Source: Xenophilus sp. AP218F
GTDB taxonomy: Bacteria; Pseudomonadota; Gammaproteobacteria; Burkholderiales; Chromobacteriaceae
Direction of reading: 5' to 3'
Length of the DNA: 34,958 nt
NCBI GenBank assembly: GCA_002213445.1
Contig: NJIE01000007.1
Span: forward strand, 1 to 34,958
The notes below the pieces were generated by a model. That model saw nothing but the letters and a program-made list of their open reading frames with translations. It did no database searches and was not told the DNA's origin. The position numbers were made by a program, and so were the translations under genes. Numbering within the stretch: position 1 is the first letter of the stretch; the number at the start of each line of letters is the position of its first letter. Shown here in pieces: positions 3,073-33,083 of the stretch.

Positions 3073-3094
3073 ACCATACCCTTTCATGGTTAGT

Positions 3095-17819: not shown

Positions 17820-20435
17820 TTACTTCAGAGGCGAAGTCCTGCGCACTACTCGGTTCTGCAGCTGCAATTCCTTACGTTCCGCCTCTTGTTGCTTGCTGGT
17901 CAAAACTACTCGCAGCTTGGCATCCACTAGCAGCTTGAGCGCTTGCGTCTTAAATTCGTCACTTCCCGTCAACTCGAAGACACCACCAAATTTTTCAGTG
18001 GCATGTTGCAGCGCAGCCAGCAGAATCTCATGATCATCTTGGGCTGTGACCTGCAGGAATGGCCCATGATCGATGAATCCCGTAGCTTCCTGTTCGCGTC
18101 TGTAAACGACTGCGCCGTCCACGCGTACATGGAAGCCTATTCCCAGCTGCAGCTGGGCCAGCTTCGGATCGCACTGCTCTATGGCCCTGATGCCGTTCCC
18201 TCCACCGGCATCCTTGATCACCGTCAGGATCTGACGACCAGAGGAATAACGCCAACCATTCAATTGCACGATGGCGGCTTCGTCGCCTCCCATAGCTTGA
18301 CGGGCCACCCACTGTCGATAATTGAGCCTCCGATTCGTAGGGTCTGCCCTCAGAATGGCACGCTCCCCTCGGAGTTCCCTTTGCAGACGGTCTTTGGCCA
18401 GCATAGTATCGAATGCAATCACGCTATACAGAAGTTTGCGCTGAGCGGCAACGGGGACTGTACTGCGTACTTGAAGCCGGCGCCTCCGCGCCTCCTCTCG
18501 CAATGCTCGGAATCTGGCTCGGACAGCCTCAGGATCCAATCGACGATAAACGAAAGACCGCTTGTAGAGTCCATACCGTTCCCGCAGACCTTTTCTTTCC
18601 TTGGCGCGAGCCTCTCTCCGGATCTCCCGCATATACGGATCTCTCTTGGGCTGTCGATATTGGCTATTACTAGAACCGGCTCCGACCGTTGGCGCGGCAA
18701 ATACAGGGGCTGCGGTATATGGCCCCAGGCGGCTCACCAGCCTGGCCTTGCCAAGCTTTTCGTACAGATCGCTGGCTTTGATCGGAGCAATGGTCGGATC
18801 ATGCTGATCATAAATGGCAAGGCCTTGCCCCTTCTCTCGGATATCAAGCCCGTGCTTGGCGAGCACCAGGTGCAGCTGCGCCCAGTTGAGATCAGGCTTC
18901 TTGAGTGCCGCTTTGATCGCCGCCAGGGGAAGACCTTTGGCATAACTAAACAGGGTGTCTTGGTCGATACTCACCCCGGCACCCAGCGCCGGTGCCTGCG
19001 GACCCACATTGGTATTCGGGCTGCCGTCCATCCGGTCGATCTCGCTCAGGATGGCGCGCACCGGTGGCCGGTATTTGTCGTAGTGAGACTCGACCGGCGC
19101 CACCTGCTCGGGTGCTGCTGACCTTGCAACAAATGGACCAAGGCGCTTCACCAACCGGGACTTGGCAAGCTGCTCATGCATGTCACTCGCCTTGATCGGC
19201 GTGATGGCAGGATCGTGCCGATCGTAGATGGCAAAGCCCTGCCCTTTCTCACGGATTTCCAGGCCATGCTTGGCAAGAGCCTCGTGCAAGTGCGCCCAGG
19301 TTAGCTCGGCATTCTTGAACGCCGCCTTTACCGTGGCCAGCGGCAGTCCGCGGGCATAGCTGAACAGGCTCTCCTGATCGGCATGCACTTCCATATCCCG
19401 CGCCGCCGTCGGGATTTTCCCCTTGGTATTCGGGCGCTTGCTTGCCCAGTCGATCACCGGCTTGCCATCGCGCATCTGGACCGCATAAGGACCGGAATCA
19501 TGCTTCCAGCCGAATCGCAGCTCCAGCTCGCGCATGGCGTAATCTAGCTTGAAGTAATCCCGGTCCGGGTACACCGCCTTGAAGGAGTCCGGATTGACTC
19601 GGTTGACGGCGATGTGGAGATGCGCGTTGTCGGTATCGCGATGGATTGCGAACACATATTGATGGTCTTGCATGCCGACGGCGCGAAGGGCATGCAGCCC
19701 ACATTCGAAGGCTTGGTCATCAGTCGGATGCTCGCCAGCCGGCCAGGACAGGATCACGTGATAGATCGCATCCTTCACCCGCGGGTTCTGTACGGCCACC
19801 GCCTCCATCTCGGCCGCGGCCGTCACCAGCGTCAAGCAGTTGTGCTGAGAGACGACGCCTGTGGAACTGGTTACTCGCTGTGCTTCTCCGATGAGTCGTC
19901 CGCTGAGGAGGTCGGCAAGAGCGTCTCTTTCATCTCGGTCATTCTGTCTCCGATGGGCTGCAGTATTAAACGCAAGGTTGGCTCGACGGGCTCGGGCGCG
20001 CGCTTGAAAGTAATGATCAATTTGTCCAAACTGGTCGAGATGTCCTGCTGCTGCCGCAAGATGGTCTCGAGCAGCGGAAAGGCTTCCTTGATGTGAATGG
20101 CCATCCCTTACTCCTCCAGCACTTTCTTCAGCTCGACGACGAGATTGGTCATGTTCTGGCCCATCGGGATCAGCAGACCTTCCAGCACCCGCAAAACGTC
20201 TTCGGACGGCAGCTGCATCAATAGCCTCAACTCGTTCAATTGTTCCGAGATAATCCTCTGCTGCTCGCAGATAGCTTCGAGCAGCTTCAAGAATTTGGTC
20301 GTATCGGCTTCGCTCGCGTTGATTGAGCTCGACATGAGGCTCCTCCTTGTCTTTGTCACGGTTGGTAATGTACGCGATAAGCTTGGCAATGTTGCTGCCA
20401 CCATCGCGCCGCTTTTCGGGGATCTTCGCGATCAT
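17820..20435 (-). CDS. MOBP-family relaxase with LPD7-like C-terminus
   Basis: The 871-residue nickase starts DNA transfer at oriT. Motif I with the likely catalytic Tyr22 is at 14-27 (SNIAKLIAYITNRD). The His triad motif HRDTDNAHLHIAVN is at 265-278 (H265, H272, H274), and YHVILSWP is at 225-232. Residues about 30-190, between motif I and the conserved LTLVTAAAEM block, are an insertion that relatives such as NikB/MobA usually lack. Exactly this stretch encodes two nested genes in another frame. Two copies of an ~85-residue module (352-437 and 490-573, both opening LFSYA.GLPLA) follow, then an Arg-rich segment and a C-terminal domain (about 725-840) of large-polyvalent-protein type. The start overlaps the mobC-like gene by four bases. 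Confidence 0.92.
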   Translation of the reverse strand: MIAKIPEKRRDGGSNIAKLIAYITNRDKDKEEPHVELNQRERSRYDQILEAARSYLRAAEDYLGTIERVEAIDAAAVRRRFAGAGRSADPDGPEHDQSRRRAEESAGGVRDGHSHQGSLSAARDHLAAAAGHLDQFGQIDHYFQARARARRANLAFNTAAHRRQNDRDERDALADLLSGRLIGEAQRVTSSTGVVSQHNCLTLVTAAAEMEAVAVQNPRVKDAIYHVILSWPAGEHPTDDQAFECGLHALRAVGMQDHQYVFAIHRDTDNAHLHIAVNRVNPDSFKAVYPDRDYFKLDYAMRELELRFGWKHDSGPYAVQMRDGKPVIDWASKRPNTKGKIPTAARDMEVHADQESLFSYARGLPLATVKAAFKNAELTWAHLHEALAKHGLEIREKGQGFAIYDRHDPAITPIKASDMHEQLAKSRLVKRLGPFVARSAAPEQVAPVESHYDKYRPPVRAILSEIDRMDGSPNTNVGPQAPALGAGVSIDQDTLFSYAKGLPLAAIKAALKKPDLNWAQLHLVLAKHGLDIREKGQGLAIYDQHDPTIAPIKASDLYEKLGKARLVSRLGPYTAAPVFAAPTVGAGSSNSQYRQPKRDPYMREIRREARAKERKGLRERYGLYKRSFVYRRLDPEAVRARFRALREEARRRRLQVRSTVPVAAQRKLLYSVIAFDTMLAKDRLQRELRGERAILRADPTNRRLNYRQWVARQAMGGDEAAIVQLNGWRYSSGRQILTVIKDAGGGNGIRAIEQCDPKLAQLQLGIGFHVRVDGAVVYRREQEATGFIDHGPFLQVTAQDDHEILLAALQHATEKFGGVFELTGSDEFKTQALKLLVDAKLRVVLTSKQQEAERKELQLQNRVVRRTSPLK
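19871..20104 (-). CDS. Small nested protein 2, inside the relaxase gene (other frame)
   Basis: A 77-residue protein is read in a different frame from the relaxase but on the same strand, covering relaxase residues about 111-188. GGAGGAG lies 7-13 bases before the ATG, and this SD sits across the stop of nested gene 1, so translation is probably coupled. The sequence is an amphipathic helix protein with LLETILRQQQDIS..L near the start and P.G.RMTEM further on. It aligns clearly with nested gene 1 (LLE.I..QQ..IS..L..L; P.G..MT). Precedents for genes inside relaxase genes are traH in RP4 traI and mbeB/mbeD in ColE1 mbeA. A relaxosome-stabilising role is inferred. Confidence 0.75.
   Translation of the reverse strand: MAIHIKEAFPLLETILRQQQDISTSLDKLIITFKRAPEPVEPTLRLILQPIGDRMTEMKETLLPTSSADDSSEKHSE
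20108..20335 (-). CDS. Small nested protein 1, inside the relaxase gene (other frame)
   Basis: A 75-residue protein lies within the relaxase gene in another frame, covering relaxase residues about 34-109. The start is chosen because AAGGAGGAG lies 5-13 bases before this ATG; an upstream in-frame Met at 20404 lacks such a site. The protein is helical and Leu/Glu-rich (LLEAICEQQRIISEQLNELRL, then a Gly-containing turn and a second helix), likely a coiled-coil oligomer. It is a paralogue of nested gene 2, three bases downstream. See that entry for precedents. Frame analysis across homologues would settle whether both frames are selected. Confidence 0.78.
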   Translation of the reverse strand: MSSSINASEADTTKFLKLLEAICEQQRIISEQLNELRLLMQLPSEDVLRVLEGLLIPMGQNMTNLVVELKKVLEE

Positions 20436-20857: not shown

Positions 20858-20910
20858 GGTTGTACGGACGCCGCTTTGCGGCGGGAGTACAAGCCCTACC
20901 CTGTCCGCCG
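20858..20910 (+). other. Predicted oriT with P-type nic site
   Basis: An imperfect inverted repeat, TTGTAC (20860-20865) with GTACAA (20887-20892) and an inner GCCGC/GCGGC, is followed by CCTACCCTGTCCGCC (20895-20909). This fits the RP4/R64 type nic consensus YAYCCTG^Y, giving a cut between G20903 and T20904 of the + strand. The position between a leftward traJ-relaxase pair and a rightward traK-like gene is the RP4 arrangement. With this polarity the 5' end of the transferred + strand leads rightward, toward 21-33 kb. Confidence 0.75.
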
Positions 20911-22759: not shown

Positions 22760-22821
22760 GGAATTGTGCGGGGGCAGCAGGCTGCCTCACGGCGCGATCC
22801 CCCTGCACATCCCTAAATCTC

Positions 22822-22841: not shown

Positions 22842-22851
22842 CTCACTCGCG

Positions 22852-23685
22852 TCAGAATAGCGCTAATTGCTCCCTCGGTGGGATAAGGCACAGCACAGGC
22901 TCTGCCACTGTCGCAAGGCAAGGGGCGAGTACGTCATTTTCCGGAGCGGGCAGCAGCACAACCGGATTGTCTACTGTTTCGGCCCTTTGGCGCGCAGCCA
23001 GCCTCCGGGACCACCCTCCTAAAATGTGGGCTGGGGTATACCACTTCCCCCATTGTTTGAGCGTCAGCGTATTTCCTTGGACGATGACGGCCGGGATGTG
23101 TAGCAGTGAAAACTGGATGTAGGCCATAAGGGCGGCCGTTTCATCTACGTCCCACGCTTCAACATGCATAACCTGCTGATAGTTGATGCCCTCTTCCATC
23201 AGCATGTCCGCGAAGGCGATTACCATAGAGCCTGCCCCCACGGCCGGTTCATGCATTGAAAAAAATCCCCCCTCTTCCTGGACCTTCCGCCAGGCATCCA
23301 GCGGGCCACAATTCAGGCGAGTGACAAGCCGACTTAGCTCAATCGGGGTGAAAAATTGCCCTTTCCAGTTATCGAACAACTCCAAGGCCATAAACACCGC
23401 GCCTAGAAAATCATGCGGTGTGGCGGCCAGTCCCTCCGTCATAACGGAAAGCATCGCAGGAAACCGGCTAATCTCATCGCGCTCATATCGTTTGATGATT
23501 TGCATGTAACGCGCTTCGCGGGCTTCATACTGGTGACGGTCCACAGAATTGCTGATAGCCAGCGCAGCCATCTCGCAGAAGTCTCGGAACACCTCATGTA
23601 GGCGATGGCGGCGGCTGTTCTCTCGGATCAGGCGGATAAATTCGTGTTGGCATTCGTGCATGCCGGTGGGTAGGCGTTTGCTCAT
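22852..23685 (-). CDS. Orphan N6-adenine DNA methylase-like protein
   Basis: The 277-residue protein belongs to the HsdM-like N-6 DNA methylase group. GQFFTPIELSRLV (about 113-125) is the typical entry motif, and EPAVGAGSMVIAFADML (about 148-164) is the AdoMet-binding motif I with Glu for Asp. I do not find the catalytic (N/D)PP(Y/F) tetrapeptide; at the expected place the sequence reads VIVQGNTLTLKQW. It may therefore bind DNA or AdoMet without methylating, or use a variant site. The Met at 23685 is preferred because the upstream extension has no methylase character; the SD is weak. No restriction gene is adjacent, fitting a protective role early in transfer. Confidence 0.8.
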   Translation of the reverse strand: MSKRLPTGMHECQHEFIRLIRENSRRHRLHEVFRDFCEMAALAISNSVDRHQYEAREARYMQIIKRYERDEISRFPAMLSVMTEGLAATPHDFLGAVFMALELFDNWKGQFFTPIELSRLVTRLNCGPLDAWRKVQEEGGFFSMHEPAVGAGSMVIAFADMLMEEGINYQQVMHVEAWDVDETAALMAYIQFSLLHIPAVIVQGNTLTLKQWGKWYTPAHILGGWSRRLAARQRAETVDNPVVLLPAPENDVLAPCLATVAEPVLCLIPPREQLALF

Positions 23686-23701
23686 GATGCGATCTTGCGA
23701 T

Positions 23702-23720
23702 GCCCGGCTAGGAGCCGGGC
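23702..23720. other. Perfect intergenic hairpin
   Basis: GCCCGGCT, a 3-base loop, then AGCCGGGC, in the 76-bp gap between the 72-residue protein gene and the methylase gene. CCGGC/GCCGG follows at about 23742-23755. Confidence 0.7.
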
Positions 23721-23761
23721 GGGAGTCAACCGAGGCGACCGGCCGAAGCCGGCCGCCGTTG

Positions 23762-23980
23762 TCAAACGGTGTAGGACGGATAGCGAGCATCCGGGTCGAT
23801 GGGGCCGGCCAGCAGCTCATTTGTCGATGCGTCGAACACCTCCACCCAATGTCCGCGCCGCCAAAATTCCCGGCAGAGGACACGGGCAACTTTTCGAGCA
23901 GGGGTCGTTGCGGTTCCAACCAGCTTGCTCGGCCCGTCGAATTCGGGGTTAAAAGTCGTTGCTTCGATACGAAACGCCAT
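23762..23980 (-). CDS. Small conserved-looking protein of unknown function
   Basis: Not recognised. The 72-residue protein begins MAFRIEATTFNPEF and has a basic middle (ARKVARVLCREFWRRG) followed by WVEVFDASTNELL..P, which looks like a small alpha/beta domain. The ATG is supported by GAGGAG 9-14 bases upstream. It lies between a 29-residue leader gene and the methylase gene, downstream of repeat element copy 1, so it should be among the genes expressed from that element. Confidence 0.7.
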   Translation of the reverse strand: MAFRIEATTFNPEFDGPSKLVGTATTPARKVARVLCREFWRRGHWVEVFDASTNELLAGPIDPDARYPSYTV

Positions 23981-24002
23981 AGTGTTTTCTCCTCTCGAAT
24001 AG

Positions 24003-24092
24003 TCAGATAGCACGTTCCACCTGGGTAACTACCCAGCGACCGGCGCGCAACACCTCGGTCAATTTCGAGCCGTTAATCACGATGATTCGCAT
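24003..24092 (-). CDS. 29-residue leader protein, copy A
   Basis: The short gene begins MRIIVINGSKLTEV and contains W-V-V-T-Q-V. Its partner at 32299-32388 begins MRTIVMNGSKLTEV; 19 of 29 residues are identical, while the third codon positions differ. Conservation at the protein level supports a real coding region. GAAAGG precedes the ATG by about 8 bases, and the 5' flank is shared with copy B and runs into the 485-bp element. A small DNA- or protein-binding beta hairpin is possible; the function is unknown. Confidence 0.75.
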   Translation of the reverse strand: MRIIVINGSKLTEVLRAGRWVVTQVERAI

Positions 24093-24111
24093 GGTTTTGC
24101 CTTTCGGGTTT

Positions 24112-24600
24112 CCCCCCTCTCCTAAGGAGAGTGGAGCCTGCCGGGTTCAAAAAAGCATCCGCGAAGCGGATTCAACAAGCCGCCGGGTTTTGGCCGGGGG
24201 AGGATTTTTGTCCTCTCTCCCGCGGAGTTGCGTATGCCTGTGCCGTGAGTGCGAAAGAGCACGGCCGGGAGCAGGTGCAAGTCGGCCGCAGGCCCCCGGC
24301 TCGCCGGGTTGACTTGCACCTGCTCCTGGTTGTGCTGCACTCACGTATAGGCACAGGTATGCGCAATTCCGTGACCGAGGGAGAGAGGACTTCCCCCGGA
24401 CAGGATCCGGCTAGGCGAAGCCCCGCTTGCGGCTGCTTTTGAACCTGGCGGGCGCAGCTCGCCTGGAGAACATCGCGCGCCGGCAGGCGCGGCCGCAGCC
24501 CCTCACGGGGCCGAGGGGGTGGGGTTTGAAGACCTGCACAACGCACGGCGGCGGCTATTTTTGACGGGGTTTCCTACCGCCAGGAACTGGCGGTGATCGC
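24112..24600. repeat. Leading-region element, copy 1 (giant covarying hairpin)
   Basis: First of three direct ~485-bp copies. It opens with CTCTCCTAAGGAGAG (24117-24131). The region from about 24130 to 24465 folds into one long imperfect hairpin. The outer arms share GGTTCAAAA/TTTTGAACC, the mid arms GTCCTCTCTCCC (24210-24221) pairs with GGGAGAGAGGAC (24379-24390), and the apical arm GAGCAGGTGCAAGTC (24269-24283) pairs perfectly with 24311-24325. TTGACT (24309-24314), a good -35 hexamer, lies at the apex. The copy ends with CCGCCAG-GAA-CTGGCGG. It lies upstream of the minus-strand genes at 22852-24092. I infer a single-strand promoter (Frpo/ssi-like). Confidence 0.85.
24149..24171 (-). terminator. 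Terminator/attenuator-like hairpin in element copy 1
   Basis: On the minus strand, ATCCGC-TTC-GCGGAT is followed by GCTTTTTTG. It points toward the leader gene and lies between the big hairpin and the genes, so it may act as an attenuator or stop readthrough from the upstream gene set. The same structure occurs in copies 2 and 3. Confidence 0.6.
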
Positions 24601-24731
24601 ACAGATGAAGACCTAAGGTGATTGAGTGGCCGGCAAGATTTTCCGATAGACCAGCACTGACGGGATGACTTAAAGCATGGGCAATGTACAGCGAGTCGTG
24701 GATCGAGTTCGAATGGACCCCGGTGGCAATT

Positions 24732-24850
24732 GCACGCGCCGTCAGGCGCGTGCTTGTGACAGATGCCGCCGTAGGCGGCGGCCTTGGCCCCTCACGGGGC
24801 CGTGGGGTAGGGTTGGCAAGCGAGGGCCGGTCGATCCGGCCCTCGCTTGC
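24732..24850. other. Cluster of four perfect hairpins
   Basis: Four stems with 3-5 base loops occur within 120 bases: GCACGCGCC/GGCGCGTGC (24732-24753), GCCGCC/GGCGGC (24765-24779), GGCCCC/GGGGCC (24786-24801) and a 15-bp perfect stem GCAAGCGAGGGCCGG with its complement (24816-24850). The stretch 24601-24934 holds no gene I can support. The cluster may be a single-strand initiation site or a terminator group for the DUF3768 operon. Confidence 0.7.
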
Positions 24851-24885
24851 GCCGGCGCCCGAGTCTGCGCCCTTACTCCCACCAA

Positions 24886-24905
24886 AAGTTTCGCATGCGA
24901 AACTT
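24886..24905. promoter_or_regulatory. 20-bp operator-like palindrome, copy 2 (perfect)
   Basis: AAGTTTCGCATGCGAAACTT is a perfect palindrome 30 bases past the stop of the DUF3768 gene. It is related to the sites at 22822 and 32970 and resembles parS-type sites (GTTTC...GAAAC) in layout only. Confidence 0.7.
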
Positions 24906-24934
24906 AAAGCGGGGGATGTGGTGGGCATGCGAGG

Positions 24935-25432
24935 TCAGTATTCTTCCGCCAGCATGAGCGTCAGAACGCGGGTGGTTTTTTCCGGATTCCATGGTTCCTC
25001 GCTGGCATAGTGGCAATCCTTATCGTAATAGTCGATTTTCCAGAATGCTTTTTGCCCGCCGATTTCCACGCAGCCAAACGAGCGGTCAAGGTATGGATCG
25101 TCGCCCGGTTCGAACGCTTCGAAAGCGGTGATGCGTTGCAAGAACTCGTCGCGGTTTGGCAACGCCCGGAAGCCTTCAGTCATGACTACGTGGCCGCCGA
25201 TGAAGTGCCGCCGTAACGTGTCATTCCTGCGCGCGCACAACAGGTTTTGCAGAATTGTTCCTCGGCTCCAGACTTCCCCGTTCACGCGCACGGAGAATTG
25301 ATTGAACTCCGACGCGGGCAATGATGCCAGCATTTGCGTCAGCCAATTCATCGCGGCGATGGGGGCAACATCCGGGCAAGGTTGGCCGTCAAGAGTGGTG
25401 ATGGAGTGGCGGGCTTGGGTCGTGGTGCTCAT
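24935..25432 (-). CDS. DUF3768 family protein
   Basis: The 165-residue protein carries the DUF3768 signature. It includes NDTLRRHFIGGHVVMTEGFRAL (about 68-89), a middle DDPYLDRSFGCVEIGG and the C-terminal WKIDYYDKDCHYASEEPWNPEKTTRVLTLMLAEEY block that ends the family. The N-terminal 60 residues are extra. The biochemical role is unknown; the family is common on plasmids and integrative elements near transfer genes. I chose the Met at 25432 (AGGAAC 9 bases upstream). It follows the LPD29 gene by about 50 bases, with a perfect hairpin in between, in the same transcription unit downstream of element copy 2. Confidence 0.85.
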   Translation of the reverse strand: MSTTTQARHSITTLDGQPCPDVAPIAAMNWLTQMLASLPASEFNQFSVRVNGEVWSRGTILQNLLCARRNDTLRRHFIGGHVVMTEGFRALPNRDEFLQRITAFEAFEPGDDPYLDRSFGCVEIGGQKAFWKIDYYDKDCHYASEEPWNPEKTTRVLTLMLAEEY

Positions 25433-25451
25433 TTGATGGGTTCCTGCAAGT

Positions 25452-25470
25452 GGCTCCCCACTGGGGAGCC
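25452..25470. other. Perfect intergenic hairpin
   Basis: GGCTCCCC-ACT-GGGGAGCC lies in the 49-bp gap between the LPD29 and DUF3768 genes. The loop length matches the hairpins at 23702 and 27231, but the stem sequence is different. Confidence 0.75.
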
Positions 25471-25481
25471 GGGTATTGGGA

Positions 25482-26345
25482 TTAGTCGCAGAGGGCTTCC
25501 AACGCTTCACGAATCAACTGCTCATAGCTTTGGCCCCAGCCGTTCGGGTAGCGGTAGCGCAGCTCGCCGCGCCGGTAGGCTTCCGCTTGAGGTTTATCGG
25601 CGCGGTCGATGTCGGCCAGCAGGCCGGCAAACAGCTGTTCGATGGCGGTTTCGATCATGGCCAGCGAGATCGAACGATGCGCGAAGATGTAGCGGGCTTC
25701 TCCGAACACCTGATTAAACGGGGTGGCTTGGTATTCGAAGTAATCTTCCATGCTGTTGAAGCTGCCGGCCTTGTGGCGGGAAAGGAACGGCTTAACAGCA
25801 TCCTCGCTTGGGCCATCTTCCCAAGACACATTGACCGTGCCGTAATCAGCTTTGCGCACGCTGAATTTGACCTTGGGCCATTCTTTTTTCAGCGTCTTGC
25901 GAATGTTCGCGGCGACCAGCTTGCCGCAACTCTCCCGGTCGCCTTGGGTGAGATGGGCGAATTCCGGCGCGGTTTTCAGGCGGGCCACTTCCGCAGCAAA
26001 TGCGGTTTTGGCTTCGGATTTCTTGGCTTCGGCTTCCGCCTTCACCGTCGCCGCCAATGCCAGCCGCTGCGCGATCTGCTCCGGGGTTTCCGGGGCTTCG
26101 TCCACAATACGCCATTGCACACCGCGCAAGATGCACTCCGGCAATTGCTGCGTCACTGCGCCGCCGTCGAAAACGATGTCGAATTTCGCCCCGCCCCCGG
26201 TATGGATTACACCGCCATGGATACGAACCGATTCCGGCGATTGCTCGCCGTCGATGGCGTAAACGGTGCCATAGCCGCGCCCGTACAAATTGGTGTGAAC
26301 GCGAGTGCCGATGGTGATGGTTTGGGAGCTTGTCGCAGTCGCCAT
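25482..26345 (-). CDS. LPD29-type large polyvalent protein-associated domain protein
   Basis: The 287-residue cytoplasmic protein has an N-terminal beta-rich domain (residues 8-75, GTRVHTNLYGRGYGTVYAI onward) and a charged Ala/Lys/Glu helix (about 85-125). An LPD29-type domain follows: KLVAANIRKTLKKEWPKVKFSVRK, then VNVSWEDGP (about 160-177). LPD domains occur in proteins delivered or expressed with conjugative elements and phages; their biochemical function is not known to me. The start has AAGGAA 8-9 bases upstream and lies 24 bases left of element copy 2, which would drive it together with the DUF3768 gene. Confidence 0.8.
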   Translation of the reverse strand: MATATSSQTITIGTRVHTNLYGRGYGTVYAIDGEQSPESVRIHGGVIHTGGGAKFDIVFDGGAVTQQLPECILRGVQWRIVDEAPETPEQIAQRLALAATVKAEAEAKKSEAKTAFAAEVARLKTAPEFAHLTQGDRESCGKLVAANIRKTLKKEWPKVKFSVRKADYGTVNVSWEDGPSEDAVKPFLSRHKAGSFNSMEDYFEYQATPFNQVFGEARYIFAHRSISLAMIETAIEQLFAGLLADIDRADKPQAEAYRRGELRYRYPNGWGQSYEQLIREALEALCD

Positions 26346-26368
26346 GATTATTTCCTTGCTACTGGTTT

Positions 26369-26855
26369 CCCCCCCTCTCCTAAGGAGAGTGGAGCCTGCC
26401 GGGTTCAAAAAAGCATCCGCGAAGCGGATTCAACAAGCGGCCGGGTTTTGGCCGGGGGAGGATTCTGTCCTCTCTCCCGCGGAGTTGCGTATGCCTGTGC
26501 CGTGAGTGCGAAAGAGCACGGCCGGGAACGGGTTCAAGTCGGCCGCAGGCCCCCGCTCGCCGGGTTGACTTGCACCCGTTCCTGGTTGTGCTGCACTCAC
26601 GTATAGGCACAGGTATGCGCAATCCCGTGACCGAGGGAGAGAGGACCTCCCCCGGGCAGGATCCGGCTAGGCGAAGCCCCGCTTGTGGCTGCTTTTGAAC
26701 CTGGCGGGCGCAGCTCGGCTGGAGAACATCGGGCGCCGGCAGGCGCGGCCGCAGCCCCTCACGGGGCCGAGGGGGTGGGGTTTGAAGACCGGAACAGCGC
26801 ACGGTGGCGGCGGTTCCTGACGGTGTCCCCTACCGCCAGGAACTGGCGGTGATCG
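26369..26855. repeat. Leading-region element, copy 2 (giant covarying hairpin)
   Basis: Second ~485-bp copy, in direct orientation. The apical arm GAACGGGTTCAAGTC (26526-26540) pairs with GACTTGCACCCGTTC (26567-26581) with one mismatch. Compared with copies 1 and 3, the bases at arm positions 3 and 5 differ and so do their partners, so pairing is kept. TTGACT lies at 26565-26570. The copy sits directly upstream of the LPD29-DUF3768 gene pair. Its right part overlaps the 3' end of the gene at 26667-27209. Confidence 0.85.
26407..26429 (-). terminator. Terminator/attenuator-like hairpin in element copy 2
   Basis: On the minus strand, ATCCGC-TTC-GCGGAT then GCTTTTTTG, as in copy 1. It is 60-80 bases upstream of the LPD29 start. 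Confidence 0.6.
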
Positions 26856-27209
26856 TGAGCCAATTTGGTGTTCAGCGACAGCACAAACTGAGTCACTTGG
26901 ATGAACTTGTCCGATTCGTTTCAGGCAACGCCTGCATGTCACTGCCGTGGCTATCGTGGAACACCTGGCGTCGTCGCGCCGCCGGCCGCAAAGCGTTTTG
27001 AGGTGCTTACCGATAGCCAGATGCACGGCTCCGGGGGTGGTTCGCCTGCCGGCAGCCAAGCCCGCTTGGTAGGCTCCGAGCAGTGCGGCCTGGATCGACC
27101 ACACCGGCAGGTCATGAAAATCGAGACAATCGCGGCTTCGCCGTTCCAGCGTGTCGATCAACAGGTGTTTGCGGGCGATTTCATGGAAAAGGCGATCAAG
27201 TTCAATCAT
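26667..27209 (-). CDS. DUF6900-like protein with Cys-rich middle, tail read from the repeat
   Basis: The 180-residue protein has an N-terminal part (EIARKHLLIDTLERR.RDCLDFHDLPVWSIQAALLGAYQAGLAAG, within residues 10-55) that looks like the DUF6900 family of small phage/plasmid proteins. A middle with C-GRRR...C..IATAVTCRRC could bind zinc. The last 55-60 residues (Pro/Arg-rich) are translated from the right part of element copy 2 and are probably not a folded domain. Either the gene originally ended earlier, or its stop was lost when the element inserted. AGGAG lies 10 bases before the start. It should be co-transcribed with the upstream genes from 27265. Confidence 0.6.
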   Translation of the reverse strand: MIELDRLFHEIARKHLLIDTLERRSRDCLDFHDLPVWSIQAALLGAYQAGLAAGRRTTPGAVHLAIGKHLKTLCGRRRDDARCSTIATAVTCRRCLKRIGQVHPSDSVCAVAEHQIGSRSPPVPGGRGHRQEPPPPCAVPVFKPHPLGPVRGCGRACRRPMFSSRAAPARFKSSHKRGFA

Positions 27210-27230
27210 GGTGGTCAGCTCCTGGACGCT

Positions 27231-27255
27231 ATACTGGCGGCAGCGCCGCCAGTAT
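27231..27255. other. Perfect intergenic hairpin
   Basis: ATACTGGCGGC-AGC-GCCGCCAGTAT, an 11-bp stem with a 3-base loop, fills the 55-bp gap between two genes. Confidence 0.8.
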
Positions 27256-27264
27256 CAGAGAACA

Positions 27265-27759
27265 TCATGCGGTCTGATTGCCGATGAGTCCGTAGTAGTC
27301 GGATTCTTGCAATTGTTCCGCTACCCAGTCCCAATACCCCTCAATCGTGTGGCCTTCCGTTACCCAAGTCCGCCATTGGGATACTGGTAAGCAGGGATGG
27401 CCGGCCTCGGTATGGCCATACTTTTCGGCAAGCTGGCAAGGCAGCAGCTGCTGGTCTTTAGCCGCCTCCACCTCGCTGTACGGCAGATAGGTCGGCAGCT
27501 CGTCCACAATGTAGCCATCTTCCTCGAACAGCACCCATGTGATTGGCGATAAGCGAATTTCCAGCCAGGCGCGCAGCGCGCGCAGCTCCGGGAATCCCCT
27601 GCCGGCATCCTCGTTCTCCAAATTGACAAAGAAGCCTCGCGAGGTTTGCGCCGATTGCAGCGGTTCGTCGCGGTCGCCGGCAGTCGCCTCCAGATAATGG
27701 CGAGTCATGATGGCCAGGTGGGACAGCGACAGCACTGGAAAGGTATAGGTCGTATGCAT
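27265..27759 (-). CDS. Leading-region protein of unknown function (possibly DUF5983-like)
   Basis: The 164-residue acidic soluble protein begins MHTTYTFPVLSLSHLAIMTR, followed by GFFVNLENE and WVLFEEDGYIVDELPTY, with a Trp-rich C-terminus. The N-terminal segment (SLSHL...T..YLE...GFFV) recalls DUF5983, found on plasmids near antirestriction genes; I am not certain. Its AAGGAGG SD overlaps the TAA stop of the methyltransferase gene upstream, so translation is coupled. A role in overcoming recipient defences would suit the position but is inference. Confidence 0.65.
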   Translation of the reverse strand: MHTTYTFPVLSLSHLAIMTRHYLEATAGDRDEPLQSAQTSRGFFVNLENEDAGRGFPELRALRAWLEIRLSPITWVLFEEDGYIVDELPTYLPYSEVEAAKDQQLLPCQLAEKYGHTEAGHPCLPVSQWRTWVTEGHTIEGYWDWVAEQLQESDYYGLIGNQTA

Positions 27760-27772
27760 GGTCTTGTCCTCC

Positions 27773-28417
27773 TTACGCGGCCAGTGCTTGGCGACCCGCT
27801 GCTAGCCGGCGCACGCCAGCGGCGTGGTATTCCGGAAGCAGCTCGATCCCGATGTAGCGTCGCCCGGTTTCGGCCGCCGCGACGCAGGTCGATCCGGACC
27901 CAGCGAACGGGTCCAGCACGATGTCGCCTGGGCGGGTGAACGACTCGATCAAGGGCCGCAGGCACGCGACCGGTTTTTCGGTCGGGTGGTGACGATTGCC
28001 GGTGTACTGCCACGGCATCACGTCGCGCAGTGGCTCGGCCGGTTCAGCCGGTCGGCCCTTGGCCAGCAGGTAGGCCGACTCGTGGGCGTAGCCAAAAAAT
28101 CCGGATTTGCTCGAATAGGACTTGGCGAAAACGATGTGGCCGACCACGCGGAAACCGGCCGCCTTCCACGCCGCGAAAAACGTGTCCACCTTGGTCCATC
28201 CGTAGAACGACAACATGAAGGCATTCGGCTTGAGGACGCGGTACATCTCCGCGACGGCTGGCGCGAGCCAGTCGTCGCGCACGTCGTTGGCGATGGAGCG
28301 GCCGGCGCGGTCGCGGAAATTGACCAGATACGGCGGGTCGGTCAGGATGAAATCCACCGCGCCAGCGGGGTAGGTCGGCAGAATGGATAGGCAGTCGCCC
28401 AGGACGAAACGGCTCAT
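27773..28417 (-). CDS. DNA methyltransferase, beta class (orphan)
   Basis: The 214-residue enzyme has the order of beta-class DNA methyltransferases. The catalytic DPPYLVNF is near residue 27, a variable middle follows, then HPTEKPVACLRPLIESFTRPGDIVLDPFAGSGST, where DPFAGSGST (about 175-183) is the AdoMet site. It methylates adenine N6 or cytosine N4. DNA methylases of this class are also found in F- and I-type plasmid leading regions, where they may protect incoming DNA. The start is chosen at MSRFVLG because GGAGACC lies just upstream; six more codons to 28435 are possible. No cognate endonuclease is visible. Confidence 0.9.
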   Translation of the reverse strand: MSRFVLGDCLSILPTYPAGAVDFILTDPPYLVNFRDRAGRSIANDVRDDWLAPAVAEMYRVLKPNAFMLSFYGWTKVDTFFAAWKAAGFRVVGHIVFAKSYSSKSGFFGYAHESAYLLAKGRPAEPAEPLRDVMPWQYTGNRHHPTEKPVACLRPLIESFTRPGDIVLDPFAGSGSTCVAAAETGRRYIGIELLPEYHAAGVRRLAAGRQALAA

Positions 28418-28600
28418 GGAGGTCTCCGAAGTCATCGGATAGCGCGACGTTGCCGATGCGGCCGTACCGCACTACCCGATGCCTCGATGGCGCGCGGGGC
28501 TGCCGGTCAAGGCGACGTGGAATACCGAGGTCGCTTGCGGCCGAGGCTATGCCGCGAAAGCGCCTTGAAAGCGCGCCGGCCGGGCATACTCCTTGGCCCG

Positions 28601-28875
28601 GCCGGCCGCTGGCCGGCTGAAGCACCGCGAAGCCACGATGGCTTCGGGTAGTGCCCTAAACAGCGCCCGCAGCAGCGGGCCTCCAGCTTCTTGGGAGAGT
28701 CAGGTGTGCGGCGCAGCCGCACATCACCAGGGCCGGCAGCGCCGGCGGCCGATTCCGGGCAGGGGGCAGCGGGGTGGCCGCCGGAGGCGGCCGGCCCGCT
28801 GCGGGTGTGGGGCCGCGAAGCGGGGCTGCCCGGAAAACGACGTCCACCAGGTGGACGTCGCCGCCGTTTCGGCGG
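28601..28875. other. Array of eight or more perfect small hairpins
   Basis: The gene-free interval 28418-28895 holds back-to-back perfect stems with 1-5 base loops at 28601-28617, 28629-28645, 28665-28680, 28706-28722, 28732-28746, 28776-28792, 28838-28860 (CGACGTCCACC-A-GGTGGACGTCG) and 28861-28875. The stems differ in sequence, so this is not a simple repeat. It may be a structured single-strand site, a processing region of the leading transcript or a protein-binding platform. Confidence 0.75.
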
Positions 28876-28895
28876 TTACGCGCCGGGCGTTGTGA

Positions 28896-29063
28896 TCAGC
28901 TGGCGATCTCCCAGGTACGGCTGACCACACCGACAAACGATGACGGTCCGGGGAAGTCCTCCATCGCCTCTCTCACCCACTTCTCCAGCGCCTCGCCACT
29001 CAGACCCTTCGGGGCGTCCAGCTCATATTCTTCCTCATTGATTTCGGTGACGCGGATCTTCAT
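28896..29063 (-). CDS. 55-residue acidic protein of unknown function
   Basis: The small gene encodes an acidic protein starting MKIRVTEINEEEYELDAP, with a helix (ALEKWVREAMEDF) and a C-terminal strand. It has the layout of a small alpha/beta domain. The ATG overlaps the stop of the upstream 17-residue gene (ATGA), and GGAGGG lies inside that gene. The acidic composition could suit a DNA mimic, but that is speculation. Confidence 0.7.
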   Translation of the reverse strand: MKIRVTEINEEEYELDAPKGLSGEALEKWVREAMEDFPGPSSFVGVVSRTWEIAS

Positions 29064-29113
29064 GCTTCGATGCCCTCCACGTTGCTCAACAGCAGCTCTA
29101 AAGTGTTGTTCAT
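29060..29113 (-). CDS. 17-residue leader peptide gene
   Basis: A 17-codon frame (MNNTLELLLSNVEGIEA) starts behind a strong SD (GAGGAG, 4-5 base spacing) and ends in a four-base ATGA overlap with the next gene. This suggests that its translation feeds ribosomes into the downstream frame. It is too short to judge by homology. Confidence 0.55.
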   Translation of the reverse strand: MNNTLELLLSNVEGIEA

Positions 29114-29133
29114 GGGGTTCTCCTCGAGGATGA

Positions 29134-29153
29134 CGCGGGGCGCATGCCCCGCG
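29134..29153. other. Perfect intergenic hairpin
   Basis: CGCGGGGC-GCAT-GCCCCGCG lies in the 52-bp gap between the 245-residue protein gene and the 17-residue leader gene. Confidence 0.75.
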
Positions 29154-29165
29154 ACGGTTTTACAA

Positions 29166-29903
29166 TCACGCGGCGACGGCCTGCGAAAGGAATGGCAACA
29201 GAGCCTGCAGCTCCGCCTCGAGCAGCTGGCCGAGCTTCGGCTGCTGAGCGATGGCGGGCAGGTAATACTGCTGCAGCTGCTGGTACAGCAGCGGCTCAAC
29301 GTTGGCGGGACAGAGCGGCTCGGCGTTGTTGCCCCGGTGCTGCAGGAGGAGCTTGGCCAGCTGCGCCCCCAGCTGTTCGGAAACTTCATAATCGAAGATG
29401 CCGGGTACTCTGCCGCCGTGGTCATCAACGGTCGCGTTGACCTTGAGGCCAACGGCGCGCACACGTTCCGCCACGATGGCCAGTTCATAGCCCAGCTCAT
29501 AATGGCCTTGCCCCCACCGGTCGAGCAGCTGCTCGAAGTGATCCCCGGCTGCAGCGCGCAAACCCTCGTAAAGGAAAATCGCGGTGGTAGTCAGGCGGCG
29601 GAGCGCATGCGGGTTCGTCGCCGCCTCGTCGGGGGATTTGGCGCGCTCATCATCCTTGCGCGGGCGGTACACGCCGTCGCGATGCAGCTGCAGCCAGATC
29701 GAGCGGTCGAGATCCGCCTCGCCGCTGGGAAGTAGCGGATCGACCAGCACCTCGTCAAGCACCTCCTCGGCGTCGGCCTCTTCGACGACCTCCAGATGTG
29801 GCCAGCGCGTGTCAGCCAGCTGTGCGGCGGCTTGAGCGCTTTCGGCCTCGATCAGAAATTTGCGGCGAACAACATGGTATTGGTGTACAGCGAATTTAGG
29901 CAT
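29166..29903 (-). CDS. Leading-region protein of unknown function
   Basis: Not recognised. The 245-residue soluble acidic protein has an N-terminal MPKFAVHQYHVVRRKFLIEAES.AQAAQLAD, the form of a small ferredoxin-like domain that is frequent in plasmid proteins. An acidic linker (EEADAEEVLDEVLVD) follows, then a long helical C-terminal part rich in Leu, Gln and Ala with LLYQQLQQYYLPAIAQQ. The ATG at 29903 is preferred; a TTG 30 bases upstream is in frame. It lies directly downstream of the large ParB-like gene, suggesting joint function or at least joint expression. Confidence 0.7.
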   Translation of the reverse strand: MPKFAVHQYHVVRRKFLIEAESAQAAAQLADTRWPHLEVVEEADAEEVLDEVLVDPLLPSGEADLDRSIWLQLHRDGVYRPRKDDERAKSPDEAATNPHALRRLTTTAIFLYEGLRAAAGDHFEQLLDRWGQGHYELGYELAIVAERVRAVGLKVNATVDDHGGRVPGIFDYEVSEQLGAQLAKLLLQHRGNNAEPLCPANVEPLLYQQLQQYYLPAIAQQPKLGQLLEAELQALLPFLSQAVAA

Positions 29904-29959
29904 GGCTAGGTTCTCATCTATGAGGGAAGGCAAGGGCTGCGCCCCTGCCCTGATGGGTA

Positions 29960-31915
29960 TCAGATCGCGCCGCCCAGCACCTTGGGCAACCAGCCTTTGC
30001 CTGCCAGCAAGGCTTCGGTACGGCCAGCCGCCTCGGCCTTCTTCATCGGCGTCAGCTGCAGCGCCGCTTCGTTCGACACTTCATGAGCGACGATTTGCTG
30101 CAAGCGTAGTTTGTTGACGTGCATCAGGTAGTTGTCGACGGTCGGCTGCCAATACTGGGTCATGTCCAGCGATACCGCTTTGGCCAGCTGGTCGAGCTGG
30201 GTCACACGCTCGCGCCCGATCACGCCATCGATGTTGACCGCCACGCAGAAGGCCAGCAGCCCCAGCACCTCCTCCTGCGGCCATGCCAGAATCCACTCCA
30301 GATCGTCCTCGAAACCTTCCGGCAGTTTGCTCCGCCACAGTTCCTCGGCTGCAGTGCGCGTTGCCCATGCAGGGGACTGCTCAATGGTTTCGTCTTTGCG
30401 CGGCAAGTCGGCCAACTCGCGGGAGCGGTCCACCTTCAGCACGCTGGGGCTGTAGTAGCGCGAGCAGAACACGATGGCGGCCATACGATGCGCCATCATC
30501 GCCAGCGCCACGTGTGGCTGCTGCATCAGCTCGGCCTGCACGGCGGCGGTCCTGTGCGCCGTCATCTTGGTGACCAGCTTTTCGGAGTGAATCGCCTTGG
30601 CTGCTTGCGGCTGGCCGCTGGCGGCGGCCTGCGCCTTTTGCTCGGCCCGCTGCCTCGCCTTCAGCTCCTCTTGCGTCTTCAAGCCTTCCAGCACCACCAG
30701 CTGGCCAGCGCCATCGATGTAGATCACCGCGCCGCAGTTGGCTTTGTCGACGGGCAGGCGCATCCCTTCGCGAATCGCTTCAATCTGCGCCGCCAGCTCG
30801 TCGCGCTTGGCCTCTGCCTCCTGATAGGCATCAGATAGCTCGTTCTCATCCTCATCGTCGGCCATGTCTTCCAGCGCGAGTTCCAGCTCCTCCAGCTGCT
30901 GGTTCAGGGTGTCCAGCTGCAGCAACTCGGCTTCGCTGGCCTCGCGCAGTTCGGACGGCGCGCGTCCGTATTTTTCGCGTTCGGAATAGCTATAGTCGCC
31001 GGCGATCACGTTCACCCAGCTCCAGCCCTGCGCGGTCACCTCGTCCGCTTTCTCCTGCAGGCGCTCGGCCACGAGACTGTGCAGCAGCTCCGGGTTTGTG
31101 ATGTAGCCGGAATTGTTGCTGCTGAAGATGTCCTCTCGGACAAAGCCACCCGCCGCCTCGTATGCGTCGAGGCCGACCAACTTCACCAGCGGATTGGAGG
31201 CCGGAATTTCCGCCTTGGTGATGGCCTGCCGCAGGTTGTTGGGGTTGCGCTGCCAGTCCACCCGCGCCGCGTCCCAAACCTGCTCCTGCAGCTCGTGAGT
31301 GTCGGCCAGCGTCAGCGCCGCCAGTTGCTCCAGCGAGATTCTGTCTTCCGCCAGCAGCGCCAGTAGGCGCGGGGATGCATTGGCCAGCTTCAGCATCCGG
31401 CTGACTTGCGCCACCGGTACGCCGTACACGCTGGCGATGAACTCCTTGCTGCGCCCCTCTGCCACCAGATCCCGGTAAGCCGGGATTTGCTCATACGGCT
31501 GCATGCTCTGCCGCTGGTTGTTCTCGGCCAGCGAGATCATGCGGGCAACCGACTGGCTGACGATTTTGACCGCGACCGGAAAATCGGCCGGAATCCGGCC
31601 CGCGTTGACCAGATGTTCGAAGCCGCAGCGTCGGCGGCGGCCAGCGGCCACGCCGTAGCGTTTCGACTTGTCCTTGCCCGGTAGCTCGTACACAACCAGA
31701 TTTTGCAGCTGGCCAAGGGCGTAGAGATTCTCGGCCAGCTCCGGGATGCCGCGCAGCGGGCTGCGGAAGCGGACATTATCCTCAACGTCTTCCAGCTGGT
31801 TGAACGGCACCGTGGTGCTGACGACCTTGTCCAGCAGCGCGGCCAGCATCGCTTTGTTCTCGGCGGTGATTTCCGGGGTGGCCTCTACGGCGGTTTCGTG
31901 TGTAACGGTGGTCAT
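29960..31915 (-). CDS. Large ParB-like protein of the leading region
   Basis: The 651-residue protein has a ParB/Spo0J N-terminal domain at about 35-145: VPFNQLEDVEDNVR, LAENLYALGQLQNLVVYE, then YGVAAGRRRRCGFEHL, where the Arg-rich box is the CTP-binding signature of ParB. A helix-turn-helix follows (FIASVYGVPVAQVSRMLKLA, about 165-185). The long C-terminal part has an acidic coiled coil (about 345-410) and further helical domains. Its size and position match the YubM-type ParB-like proteins of F- and I-type plasmid leading regions rather than partition ParB, and no parA is adjacent. SD TAGGAG precedes the start. Its function during establishment is unknown; nuclease activity has been proposed for relatives. 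Confidence 0.88.
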   Translation of the reverse strand: MTTVTHETAVEATPEITAENKAMLAALLDKVVSTTVPFNQLEDVEDNVRFRSPLRGIPELAENLYALGQLQNLVVYELPGKDKSKRYGVAAGRRRRCGFEHLVNAGRIPADFPVAVKIVSQSVARMISLAENNQRQSMQPYEQIPAYRDLVAEGRSKEFIASVYGVPVAQVSRMLKLANASPRLLALLAEDRISLEQLAALTLADTHELQEQVWDAARVDWQRNPNNLRQAITKAEIPASNPLVKLVGLDAYEAAGGFVREDIFSSNNSGYITNPELLHSLVAERLQEKADEVTAQGWSWVNVIAGDYSYSEREKYGRAPSELREASEAELLQLDTLNQQLEELELALEDMADDEDENELSDAYQEAEAKRDELAAQIEAIREGMRLPVDKANCGAVIYIDGAGQLVVLEGLKTQEELKARQRAEQKAQAAASGQPQAAKAIHSEKLVTKMTAHRTAAVQAELMQQPHVALAMMAHRMAAIVFCSRYYSPSVLKVDRSRELADLPRKDETIEQSPAWATRTAAEELWRSKLPEGFEDDLEWILAWPQEEVLGLLAFCVAVNIDGVIGRERVTQLDQLAKAVSLDMTQYWQPTVDNYLMHVNKLRLQQIVAHEVSNEAALQLTPMKKAEAAGRTEALLAGKGWLPKVLGGAI

Positions 31916-31952
31916 GAGTGTGGCGCTCCTACAGTAATGGCAGTTCGGTACC

Positions 31953-31974
31953 CCCGGCGCGGTCTTGCGCCGGG
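31953..31974. other. Perfect intergenic hairpin
   Basis: CCCGGCGC-GGTCTT-GCGCCGGG lies in the 66-bp gap before the ParB-like gene (minus direction). It has the same style as the other gap hairpins. Confidence 0.7.
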
Positions 31975-31981
31975 TCGGCAA

Positions 31982-32284
31982 TCAAGCGTGTTGATGGATC
32001 AGATCGATCTCGACAAAGAAGCAAAGCCGATTCGGCTTGTCCGGATCGAAACCGAAGTGGGCCTGCAGCTGTTCATTGATCAGGCGGGTGTCGCCTGTGA
32101 TGACCGGGCGGGTCGGGATGTTGAACCAGTTCAGCAGGTCAACCATGGAAAAACCGTCGCTCAGCGTGTCCAACGCCGGGCGCGAGATGTAGAACTCGCC
32201 GGATAGGCAATAGCGATTCAGTTCGGACTCAGCGACTTGAACCCAGCCGTTGGGCTGGCTCAGATGACGGGGAATGTTGTTCAT
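31982..32284 (-). CDS. 100-residue protein of unknown function
   Basis: Not recognised. The soluble protein starts MNNIPRHLSQPNGWVQVAESELNRYCLSGEFYISRPALDTL and ends in a beta-like CFFVEIDLIHQHA. It is encoded between leader copy B and the ParB-like gene, the second gene downstream of element copy 3. A GAGG SD lies about 11 bases before the ATG. Its place parallels that of the 72-residue protein after leader copy A, but the two sequences do not look alike. Confidence 0.7.
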   Translation of the reverse strand: MNNIPRHLSQPNGWVQVAESELNRYCLSGEFYISRPALDTLSDGFSMVDLLNWFNIPTRPVITGDTRLINEQLQAHFGFDPDKPNRLCFFVEIDLIHQHA

Positions 32285-32298
32285 GATGACTGCCTCAT

Positions 32299-32388
32299 TC
32301 AGATAGCTGGCTCGACCTTGATCACCAACCAGCCGCCATCGACCTGCACTTCGGTCAGCTTGGAGCCGTTCATTACGATGGTGCGCAT
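32299..32388 (-). CDS. 29-residue leader protein, copy B
   Basis: Paralogue of the gene at 24003-24092 (19 of 29 identical). It keeps MR.IV.NGSKLTEV, the Gly-X-Trp pair and the V.KVEPAI end. It has the same distance to its repeat element and the same GAAAGG SD. It is the first gene downstream of element copy 3. Confidence 0.75.
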   Translation of the reverse strand: MRTIVMNGSKLTEVQVDGGWLVIKVEPAI

Positions 32389-32409
32389 GGTTTTGCCTTT
32401 CGGGTTTTT

Positions 32410-32891
32410 CCCCCTCTCCTAAGGAGAGTGGAGCCTGCCGGGTTCAAAAAAGCATCCGCGAAGCGGATTCAACAAGCGGCCGGGTTTTGGCCGGGGGAGG
32501 ACTTTGTCCTCTCTCCCGCGGAGTTGCGTATGCCTGTGCCGTGAGTGCGAAAGAGCACGGCCAGGAGCCGGTGCAAGTCGGCCGCAGGCCCCCGGCTCGC
32601 CGGGTTGACTTGCACCGGCTCCTGGTTGTGCTGCACTCACATAAAGGCACAGGTATCGCAAGGCCGCGACCGAGGGAGAGAGGACATTCCCCCGGACAGG
32701 ATCCGGCTAGGCGAAGCCCCGCTTGCGGCTGCTTTTGAACCTGGCGGGCGCAGCTCGCCTGGAGAACATCGGGCGCCGGCAGGCGCGGCCGCAGCCCCTC
32801 ACGGGGCCGAGGGGGTGGGGTTTGAAGACCGGAACAGCGCACGGCGGCGGCGGTTTCTGACGGTGTTCCCTACCGCCAGGAACTGGCGGTG
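32410..32891. repeat. Leading-region element, copy 3 (giant covarying hairpin)
   Basis: Third ~485-bp copy, in direct orientation. The apical arm GAGCCGGTGCAAGTC (32565-32579) pairs perfectly with GACTTGCACCGGCTC (32607-32621). The mid arms GTCCTCTCTCCC/GGGAGAGAGGAC and the outer GGTTCAAAA/TTTTGAACC arms are conserved. TTGACT lies at 32605-32610. It sits upstream of the longest gene set (26667-32388), including the ParB-like and beta-class methylase genes. Confidence 0.85.
32446..32468 (-). terminator. Terminator/attenuator-like hairpin in element copy 3
   Basis: On the minus strand, ATCCGC-TTC-GCGGAT then GCTTTTTTG, 60-80 bases before leader copy B. Same as in copies 1 and 2. Confidence 0.6.
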
Positions 32892-32969
32892 TTCCGCTGG
32901 ATCCGCAGATAAATCCAGTAGTGCATGTTGGGATGAGGTGAAGTGACCTGGCAGAGCGGTCCAGGGAAA

Positions 32970-32989
32970 AAGTTTCGCACGCGAAACTT
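32970..32989. promoter_or_regulatory. 20-bp operator-like inverted repeat, copy 3
   Basis: AAGTTTCGCACGCGAAACTT, with one central mismatch pair, lies between element copy 3 and the promoter region of the ATPase gene. See 22822 and 24886. Confidence 0.65.
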
Positions 32990-33009
32990 CAGGGCTATTG
33001 GCATCACAC

Positions 33010-33056
33010 TTGTTTACTCGATTTTATGGGATAATAATAATTATTGGATTCCCATA
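33010..33056 (+). promoter_or_regulatory. AT-rich promoter with symmetric operator upstream of the ATPase gene
   Basis: TATGGGA (33025-33031) and TCCCATA (33050-33056) flank AATAATTATT (33036-33045), and both symmetries share one centre (12 of 16 half-site bases match). A -10-like AATAAT (33033-33038) with TTGTTT 17 bases upstream, or AATAAT at 33036 with TTTACT at 33013, falls inside the symmetric site. Repression by occlusion is therefore likely. The region is strongly AT-rich against its surroundings. Confidence 0.55.
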
Positions 33057-33083
33057 ATTTCAAATAATCACCGGACAACTGCA

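Follow-up and report, generated by a model that had tools for sequence, protein, structure and literature searches.

Three giant hairpins in the presumed leading region of a Xenophilus plasmid: candidate single-stranded DNA promoters or priming sites of a divergent kind

The window analysed here (the whole stretch of 34,958 nt from Xenophilus sp. AP218F, contig NJIE01000007.1, positions 1-34,958, + strand, to which all coordinates refer) contains an element of about 485 bp present three times and always in one orientation, just as the initial annotation had reported; all copies are on the + strand, with about 95% identity to copy 1. The plasmid also carries genes for a secretin, a T2SSE ATPase and T4SS_TraI, together with a relaxase 54-56% identical to those of pBVIE04, pEMT1 and Xanthomonas plasmids. 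A putative origin of transfer (oriT) precedes the mobA-like gene. It consists of an inverted repeat and, next to it, TACCCTG-TCC on the + strand, and aligns with the ColIb site and its CATCCTG-TCC; we take the nick to lie after 20903. Because this layout aligns with that of ColIb, the + strand is presumed to be the transferred strand (T-strand) and the right-hand side the leading region. The three elements are located 3.2-12 kb from the oriT-like site on this presumed leading side, the region in which the Frpo and ssi elements of other plasmids are found. To the left of every copy there is a gene set on the - strand, an orientation that fits transcription toward oriT, with only 44, 49 and 45 nt (copies 1, 2 and 3) between the hairpin base and the first ATG. 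The earlier proposal that each copy lies just upstream of a leading-region gene set thus holds for the - strand genes to its left; other open reading frames (ORFs) of the leading side, e.g., 21448-22131 and 32943-34247, are on the + strand.

Table 1. Features of the window, in order of position, with the evidence on which each was placed.
Feature	Coordinates	Strand	Basis or remark
TraI/MobA-type relaxase	17820..20435	-	Pfam Relaxase, TraI_middle, LPD7
Putative oriT	20860..20904	+	Inverted repeat, then TACCCTG (20897-20903); side-by-side comparison with ColIb and relatives
N6-methylase-domain protein, gene set left of copy 1	22852..23820	-	Domain search; start uncertain
29-aa ORF, first ORF after copy 1	24003..24092	-	Similar ORF after copy 3
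Element copy 1	24112..24600	+	Repeat comparison and fold; main hairpin 24136-24453 (318 nt)
Terminator-like hairpin and T run, copy 1	24147..24171	-	Between predicted start and gene
Promoter-like core, copy 1	24231..24363	+	Register common with relatives, and R2; box names tentative
5'-arm bulge GAAAG, copy 1	24253-24257	+	Within core
-35-like TTGCAC and -10-like TGCACT, copy 1	24314-24319; 24336-24341	+	Box names tentative
3'-arm bulge TATAG near +1, copy 1	24346-24350	+	Within core
DUF3768 protein	24935..25510	-	Domain search; start uncertain
LPD30/LPD29 protein, first gene after copy 2	25482..26345	-	Domain search
Element copy 2	26369..26855	+	Repeat comparison and fold; main hairpin 26394-26709 (316 nt)
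Terminator-like hairpin and T run, copy 2	26405..26429	-	Between predicted start and gene
Promoter-like core, copy 2	26488..26619	+	TTGCAC 26570-26575, TGCACT 26592-26597, bulges 26510-26514 and 26602-26606; register and R2
DUF6900 protein, reading frame enters copy 2	26667..27209	-	Domain search
DUF5983 protein	27265..27759	-	Domain search
DNA methyltransferase, PRK13699 family	27773..28435	-	Domain search
Fourth structured element, different type	28460..28660	+	Core GTGGAATACCG...TATGCCGCGAAAG from 28517; directly precedes the DNA methyltransferase gene
ParB-like protein, large	29960..31981	-	Domain search
100-aa ORF, no family found	31982..32284	-	Domain search
29-aa ORF, first ORF after copy 3	32299..32388	-	Similar ORF after copy 1
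Element copy 3	32410..32891	+	Repeat comparison and fold; main hairpin 32433-32749 (317 nt)
Terminator-like hairpin and T run, copy 3	32444..32468	-	Between predicted start and gene
Promoter-like core, copy 3	32526..32659	+	TTGCAC 32610-32615, TGCACT 32632-32637, bulges 32549-32553 and 32642-32646; register and R2

Folding of the + strand as single-stranded DNA (ssDNA), the check that had been suggested, gave a giant hairpin of 316-318 nt in each of the three copies. Copy 1 (496 nt), to which the shuffle test was applied, reached -171.5 kcal/mol vs. a shuffled mean of -107.8 (z -13.4, none of 100 shuffles as low), and its - strand -152 kcal/mol (z -9.0); copies 2 and 3 were folded without shuffles. 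A scan of the whole window placed the three copies at ranks 1, 3, and 4 among the 65 local structures retained on the + strand. By BLAST at E 1e-5 no match was obtained among 72,556 plasmid records, a collection that may omit near records. Matches were found in 6 of the 61 genomes of the host family, namely its own genome and five others in which they cover merely 28-33 nt (E 1.7e-4 to 7.7e-4). An explanation of the repeat as a shared protein was discarded, since a comparison made by hand put the ORFs that enter copies 1 and 2 in frames that differ with respect to the repeat. Copies 1 and 3 also have flanking sequence in common (repeat family D6), so that the duplication exceeds the element, and the 29-aa ORFs that follow them are similar, both with NGSKLTEV.

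The T-strand had the more stable fold in all of the 21 elements compared, which comprise the three copies, the fourth element of the window, four each from F and ColIb, one each from Pantoea, Rahnella and Serratia, four from Burkholderia/Mycetohabitans, and two from Pseudomonas (loci L014-L017, L027, and L034 were left out of the set). The advantage of the + over the - strand was 16.4, 16.9, and 11.3 kcal/mol in the window copies and as little as 0.1 kcal/mol in the methylase-type element of F. As a control, 318-nt windows (n = 150) drawn from the first 23.8 kb had a mean strand difference of +0.68 (sd 4.47, minimum -10.3).

The covarying pairs quoted in the initial annotation (A-T, G-C, and C-G; G-C, A-T, and G-C) are present at alignment columns 138-186 and 136-188, although the apical stem that holds them has 26 bp and not 15, and one pair of this stem is disrupted in copy 2 (G to T). 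Across the three copies 130 pairs were counted, with 99.5% of cells paired and two pairs changed on both sides, and the covariation measures of this alignment were equalled by 28 to 85 of 500 shuffles. The compensatory changes are real but, taken alone, weak evidence for structure; the selection on structure claimed from them draws its support from relatives and from the strand bias.

Such relatives were sought in the leading regions of other plasmids, reached via LPD29 and via the methylase-upstream element (that of Pantoea via a weak BLAST match, kept as a lead in view of its T-strand hairpin preceding leading genes). Long T-strand hairpins appeared in plasmids of Burkholderia, Mycetohabitans, Pseudomonas, Rahnella, and Serratia. 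Five of them, two from B. pyrrocinia, two from B. cenocepacia and one from Mycetohabitans, have in common with the window copies a gap-free register of the 3' arm (CTTG, 17 nt, GCT), a bulge or loop of 3-6 nt on the 5' arm opposite the -10 position and a 3'-arm bulge of 4-5 nt near +1. In our own reading of the folds, boxes of a similar kind recur in the Pantoea, Serratia, and Rahnella elements with different spacing. When the three copies and these five hairpins are aligned (alignment A3, eight sequences), 17 of 26 pairs are changed on both sides and 199 of 208 cells are paired, vs. 33.7-40.9% in slid controls. A fairer test of covariation is the orthologous pair BpyA and BceA (from B. pyrrocinia and B. 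cenocepacia), in which 78 of 78 pairs are kept in both sequences and 10 are changed on both sides, a number reached by none of 500 shuffles (0-1 in slid controls). Covariation is strong in these hairpins of the same layout. Ungapped identity of the 3' arm to the Mycetohabitans hairpin was 22, 22, and 20 of 44 positions for copies 1-3 (p 0.0005, 0/2000, and 0.0025) and to BpyB 19, 20, and 17 of 44 (p 0.0055, 0.001, and 0.02). A descriptor of the layout, written after viewing the window and Burkholderia elements, gave eight matches over the window and 17 loci (the three window copies, four on Burkholderia T-strands and one on the strand opposite to the T-strand in Mycetohabitans, the T-strand copy there being missed) and none in 200 random sequences, a result that is consequently no blind test. 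Weak BLAST matches of the core in pXap41, Pandoraea, and Variovorax plasmids (E about 2) fell inside annotated genes and were dropped, and T-strand stems in the Sphingobium region (L029) did not exceed 45 pairs in a scan without side branches, which also missed the window copies. In Pseudomonas silesiensis pPL2 (L025) there are three giant T-strand hairpins (5151-5344, 10222-10419, and 12512-12709), two of them equal in fold energy, with relatives of the core in P. fragi pAd12 and pMBUI4.

We also built a covariance model (R2) from the five Burkholderia/Mycetohabitans sequences, free of any from the window. Run unfiltered on the + strand of the window, it ranked copies 3, 1, and 2 first (46.7, 45.8, and 43.5 bits; E 5.7e-10, 9.3e-10, and 3.6e-9, these E-values being rough), the best place outside the elements having E 0.085, which suggests that the copies match this hairpin set. 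Further R2 matches were obtained on the T-strand of the leading side in pBVIE04, pEMT1, and two Xanthomonas plasmids, and weak ones in F (4666-4811, E 1.2e-4) and ColIb (22378-22523, E 4e-4). At two Azohydromonas loci whose relaxases are related (L012 and L013), R2 yielded no result below E 2.4. The Serratia match (L020) served as one source in the default-filter search. In genome searches R2 matched at least 3 of 61 genomes of the host family and at least 10 of 300 of the host order; the three, and several of the other genome matches, cover chiefly the apical module (about positions 18-118 of the model) and not the promoter stem. One genome of the order (G350:C2:149192-172719; L043, L050, L053, and L056) has seven R2 matches on one strand within 24 kb of a single contig. 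As secondary evidence, 25 of 26 pairs covary in an alignment of 47 R2 matches (A7), which is fitted to the model, includes mirror-strand and repeated rows (38 distinct) and has only copy 2 from the window.

Taken together, these features make it likely, with a probability that we put at about 0.65, that each copy is an ssDNA element of the Frpo/ssi kind, a promoter and/or a primer site. The fold, its compensatory changes in relatives, the common layout, the strand bias and the position directly before - strand genes of the leading side are observed, whereas use by RNA polymerase, the start site, the timing and the genes served are predicted. Frpo, a 328-bp region of F, is able to fold; RNA polymerase uses it in vitro and it primes DNA synthesis, as described in PMC7690428 and likewise in PMC8744291. 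F has two such regions, Frpo1 and Frpo2, reported as 92% identical and as required for early leading-gene expression (PMC9849209). With a BLAST search using five known sequences, 13,089 elements in 6,006 conjugative elements are reported, with more candidates by structure (PMC11541004). The window elements would be working as follows. When the transferred (+) strand enters the recipient the element would fold, the 3' arm acting as the non-template strand, with a -35-like box at CTTG and a -10-like box after GC, and the 5' arm as the template. The bulge opposite the -10 box and that near +1 would keep the start region partly open; starting there, host RNA polymerase could move leftward, toward oriT, into the - strand gene set, and/or make an RNA primer that serves second-strand synthesis. 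Once the DNA becomes double-stranded, the hairpin would be gone and the element silent. Of the single-strand promoter proposed originally, what does not stand is the TTGACT hexamer at the apex as its box: it exists (24309-24314), but it is not the conserved box, the CTTG of the relatives starting 4 nt further on.

Like the Frpo1/Frpo2 (ssiD) hairpins of F, which we assigned by place (Frpo2 upstream of ssb, Frpo1 about 5 kb away), the window copies are near-identical T-strand hairpins of a leading region, upstream of leading genes, with a T-strand that folds better. F Frpo, however, has another apical part, TGGACA/TGGACT on the 3' arm, nearer to the -35 consensus in our own reading, and no terminator-like motif, and its function has been tested whereas the window copies are known by sequence and fold. 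With the ssi of ColIb-P9 (its hairpins were compared as a group, unassigned to ssi2 or ssi3) they share leading-region T-strand hairpins in the same orientation, a similar oriT layout and IncI-type transfer genes, but they differ in sequence and in hairpin details, ColIb having a larger one-sided bulge beside the apex. The hairpins of B. pyrrocinia p2327, B. cenocepacia HI2424 plasmid 1 and the Mycetohabitans endofungorum plasmid, which share the register and bulges given above, are also upstream of - strand genes and beside a PRK13699-like methylase region, but belong to MOBF plasmids and have another apical module, a -10 of TATGCG or TACGGT and, in four of five cases, no terminator-like motif. 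We found no description of this Burkholderia/Mycetohabitans/window hairpin family in a literature search whose coverage leaves out most subscription papers and supplements.

Several observations weigh against this reading of the copies as Frpo/ssi-like elements. The BLAST similarity to known Frpo/ssi by which PMC11541004 recognised members is lacking, the plasmid collection searched including F and ColIb; we therefore regard the copies as a divergent variant by their likely mode of working and do not file them as sequence members. An apparent covariation would also arise if unrelated hairpins were aligned arm to arm, so the argument from the eight-sequence alignment rests on its fixed register, and the structure of the BpyA/BceA pair was derived from the same two sequences. 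The 3'-arm identity is marginal to BceA (16, 18, and 18 of 44; p 0.092, 0.024, and 0.029) and not above chance to BpyA (14, 16, and 16 of 44; p 0.22, 0.087, and 0.086). The mirror (-) strand of the copies scores 32.8, 30.0, and 24.8 bits with R2 (E 1.7e-6, 8e-6, and 1.6e-4), i.e., 57 to 70% of the bits, so much of the score is owed to the long stem. Moreover, R2 with default filters returns copy 2 alone of the three (E 6.2e-8), matches the same strand on the tra side of pBVIE04, pEMT1, and the Xanthomonas relatives, and missed the window's own genome in both genome searches, for which reason the genome counts are lower bounds. The 21 elements of the strand comparison are not independent and the random control windows are not hairpins. 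The boxes (TTGCAC-16-TGCACT), in spite of the register common with relatives, are weak, with 3/6 consensus matches each and no A at position 2 of the -10, and a search of 22800-33000 gave no consensus sigma-70 promoter, vs. an average of 1.8 in shuffles. Finally, a terminator-like motif, the hairpin of which is expected to form in nascent RNA (predicted middle-pair probability 0.85, 1.0, and 1.0), separates the predicted start from the gene in all three copies, which have a single shared ancestor.

This last motif favors an alternative in which the elements are mainly second-strand start sites (ssi), where RNA polymerase or primase would lay down a short primer, the motif ending the RNA at about 100 nt and gene expression not being the purpose. 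However, the hairpin bases lie within 50 nt of the first ATG, the orientation always fits transcription into those genes, and the motif was seen in just 1 of 20 comparison regions outside the window (nor is it in the fourth element); we regard this explanation as rather unlikely. Within the region, eight such motifs were observed vs. 10.3 by shuffling, so that the motif may be a meaningless chance occurrence. A genuine motif would be compatible with a part in primer synthesis, with attenuation or with a device restricted to double-stranded DNA. In the last sense one could imagine a two-state switch in which the terminator-like hairpin silences the leading genes on double-stranded DNA while the giant hairpin activates them from ssDNA only, the new RNA staying paired to its template so that the terminator cannot form, an arrangement that we consider decidedly unlikely.

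It could also be argued that the structure acts as RNA, be it a long leader hairpin, an attenuator or a non-coding RNA, given that the fold is likewise very stable as RNA (z -14.2) and that the terminator-like motif is present. Yet the mRNA of the neighboring genes would have the - strand sequence, which folds less well than the + strand in all three copies, and the window has no Rfam match at gathering score; the strand bias would agree with an RNA of + sense, which was sought via Rfam only. This makes the RNA explanation very unlikely. Pairing might even be kept by mutation alone, template switching in imperfect palindromes copying changes from arm to arm and the copies being passive duplications. 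Template-switching correction of quasi-palindromes is known and the duplication of copies 1 and 3 does exceed the element, but such correction should erase bulges, whose places are kept in distant plasmids, CTTG and GCT are fixed while the stem between them varies, and G-T pairs favor one strand, all of which renders this origin most improbable.

The fourth element, upstream of the methyltransferase gene, is a type apart from the giant copies. At least 5000 plasmid records match its core at E up to 10, a limit that admits chance matches (best 4e-11), and this type, alike in core and place, lies directly before a gene annotated as DNA methylase or methyltransferase, in the same orientation, in F, ColIb, two Burkholderia, one Mycetohabitans, and one Serratia plasmid. 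It is probably already known, a Frpo upstream of ecoGIXM having been reported (PMC7736820). Pseudomonas and other plasmids also have this type of T-strand hairpin. The core GTGGAATACC...TATGCCGCGAAAG, characteristic of the methylase-upstream type (cf. 28517 in the window), recurs at the apex of a Burkholderia giant hairpin (L031, 6792-6912), as if apical modules had been swapped between element types. Among the proteins of the window, PADLOC gave methylase-type matches for two (one with 68 families, 25 of them shown) and one weak match to mad8. By the secretion genes, a 405-aa protein (1870-3087) has several Hint-type and AXH Pfam matches, unusual in such a cluster, and GC-rich direct repeats of 104, 63, and 62 nt are found at 34380-34956, close to the window end.

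If the copies are indeed single-strand promoter-like elements, these would extend past F and IncI to a divergent set, backed by covariation, on other MOBP and MOBF plasmids. Where BLAST fails, such elements might be sought by sequence tests, namely a fold energy that favors the T-strand, bulges at the -10 and +1 positions and a fixed register of the boxes. Should the two-state switch apply, it would be a built-in sensor of single strands in a family of plasmid hairpins beyond the reach of BLAST with F and ColIb sequences. The neighboring genes would in turn become candidates for early, establishment or anti-defence functions.

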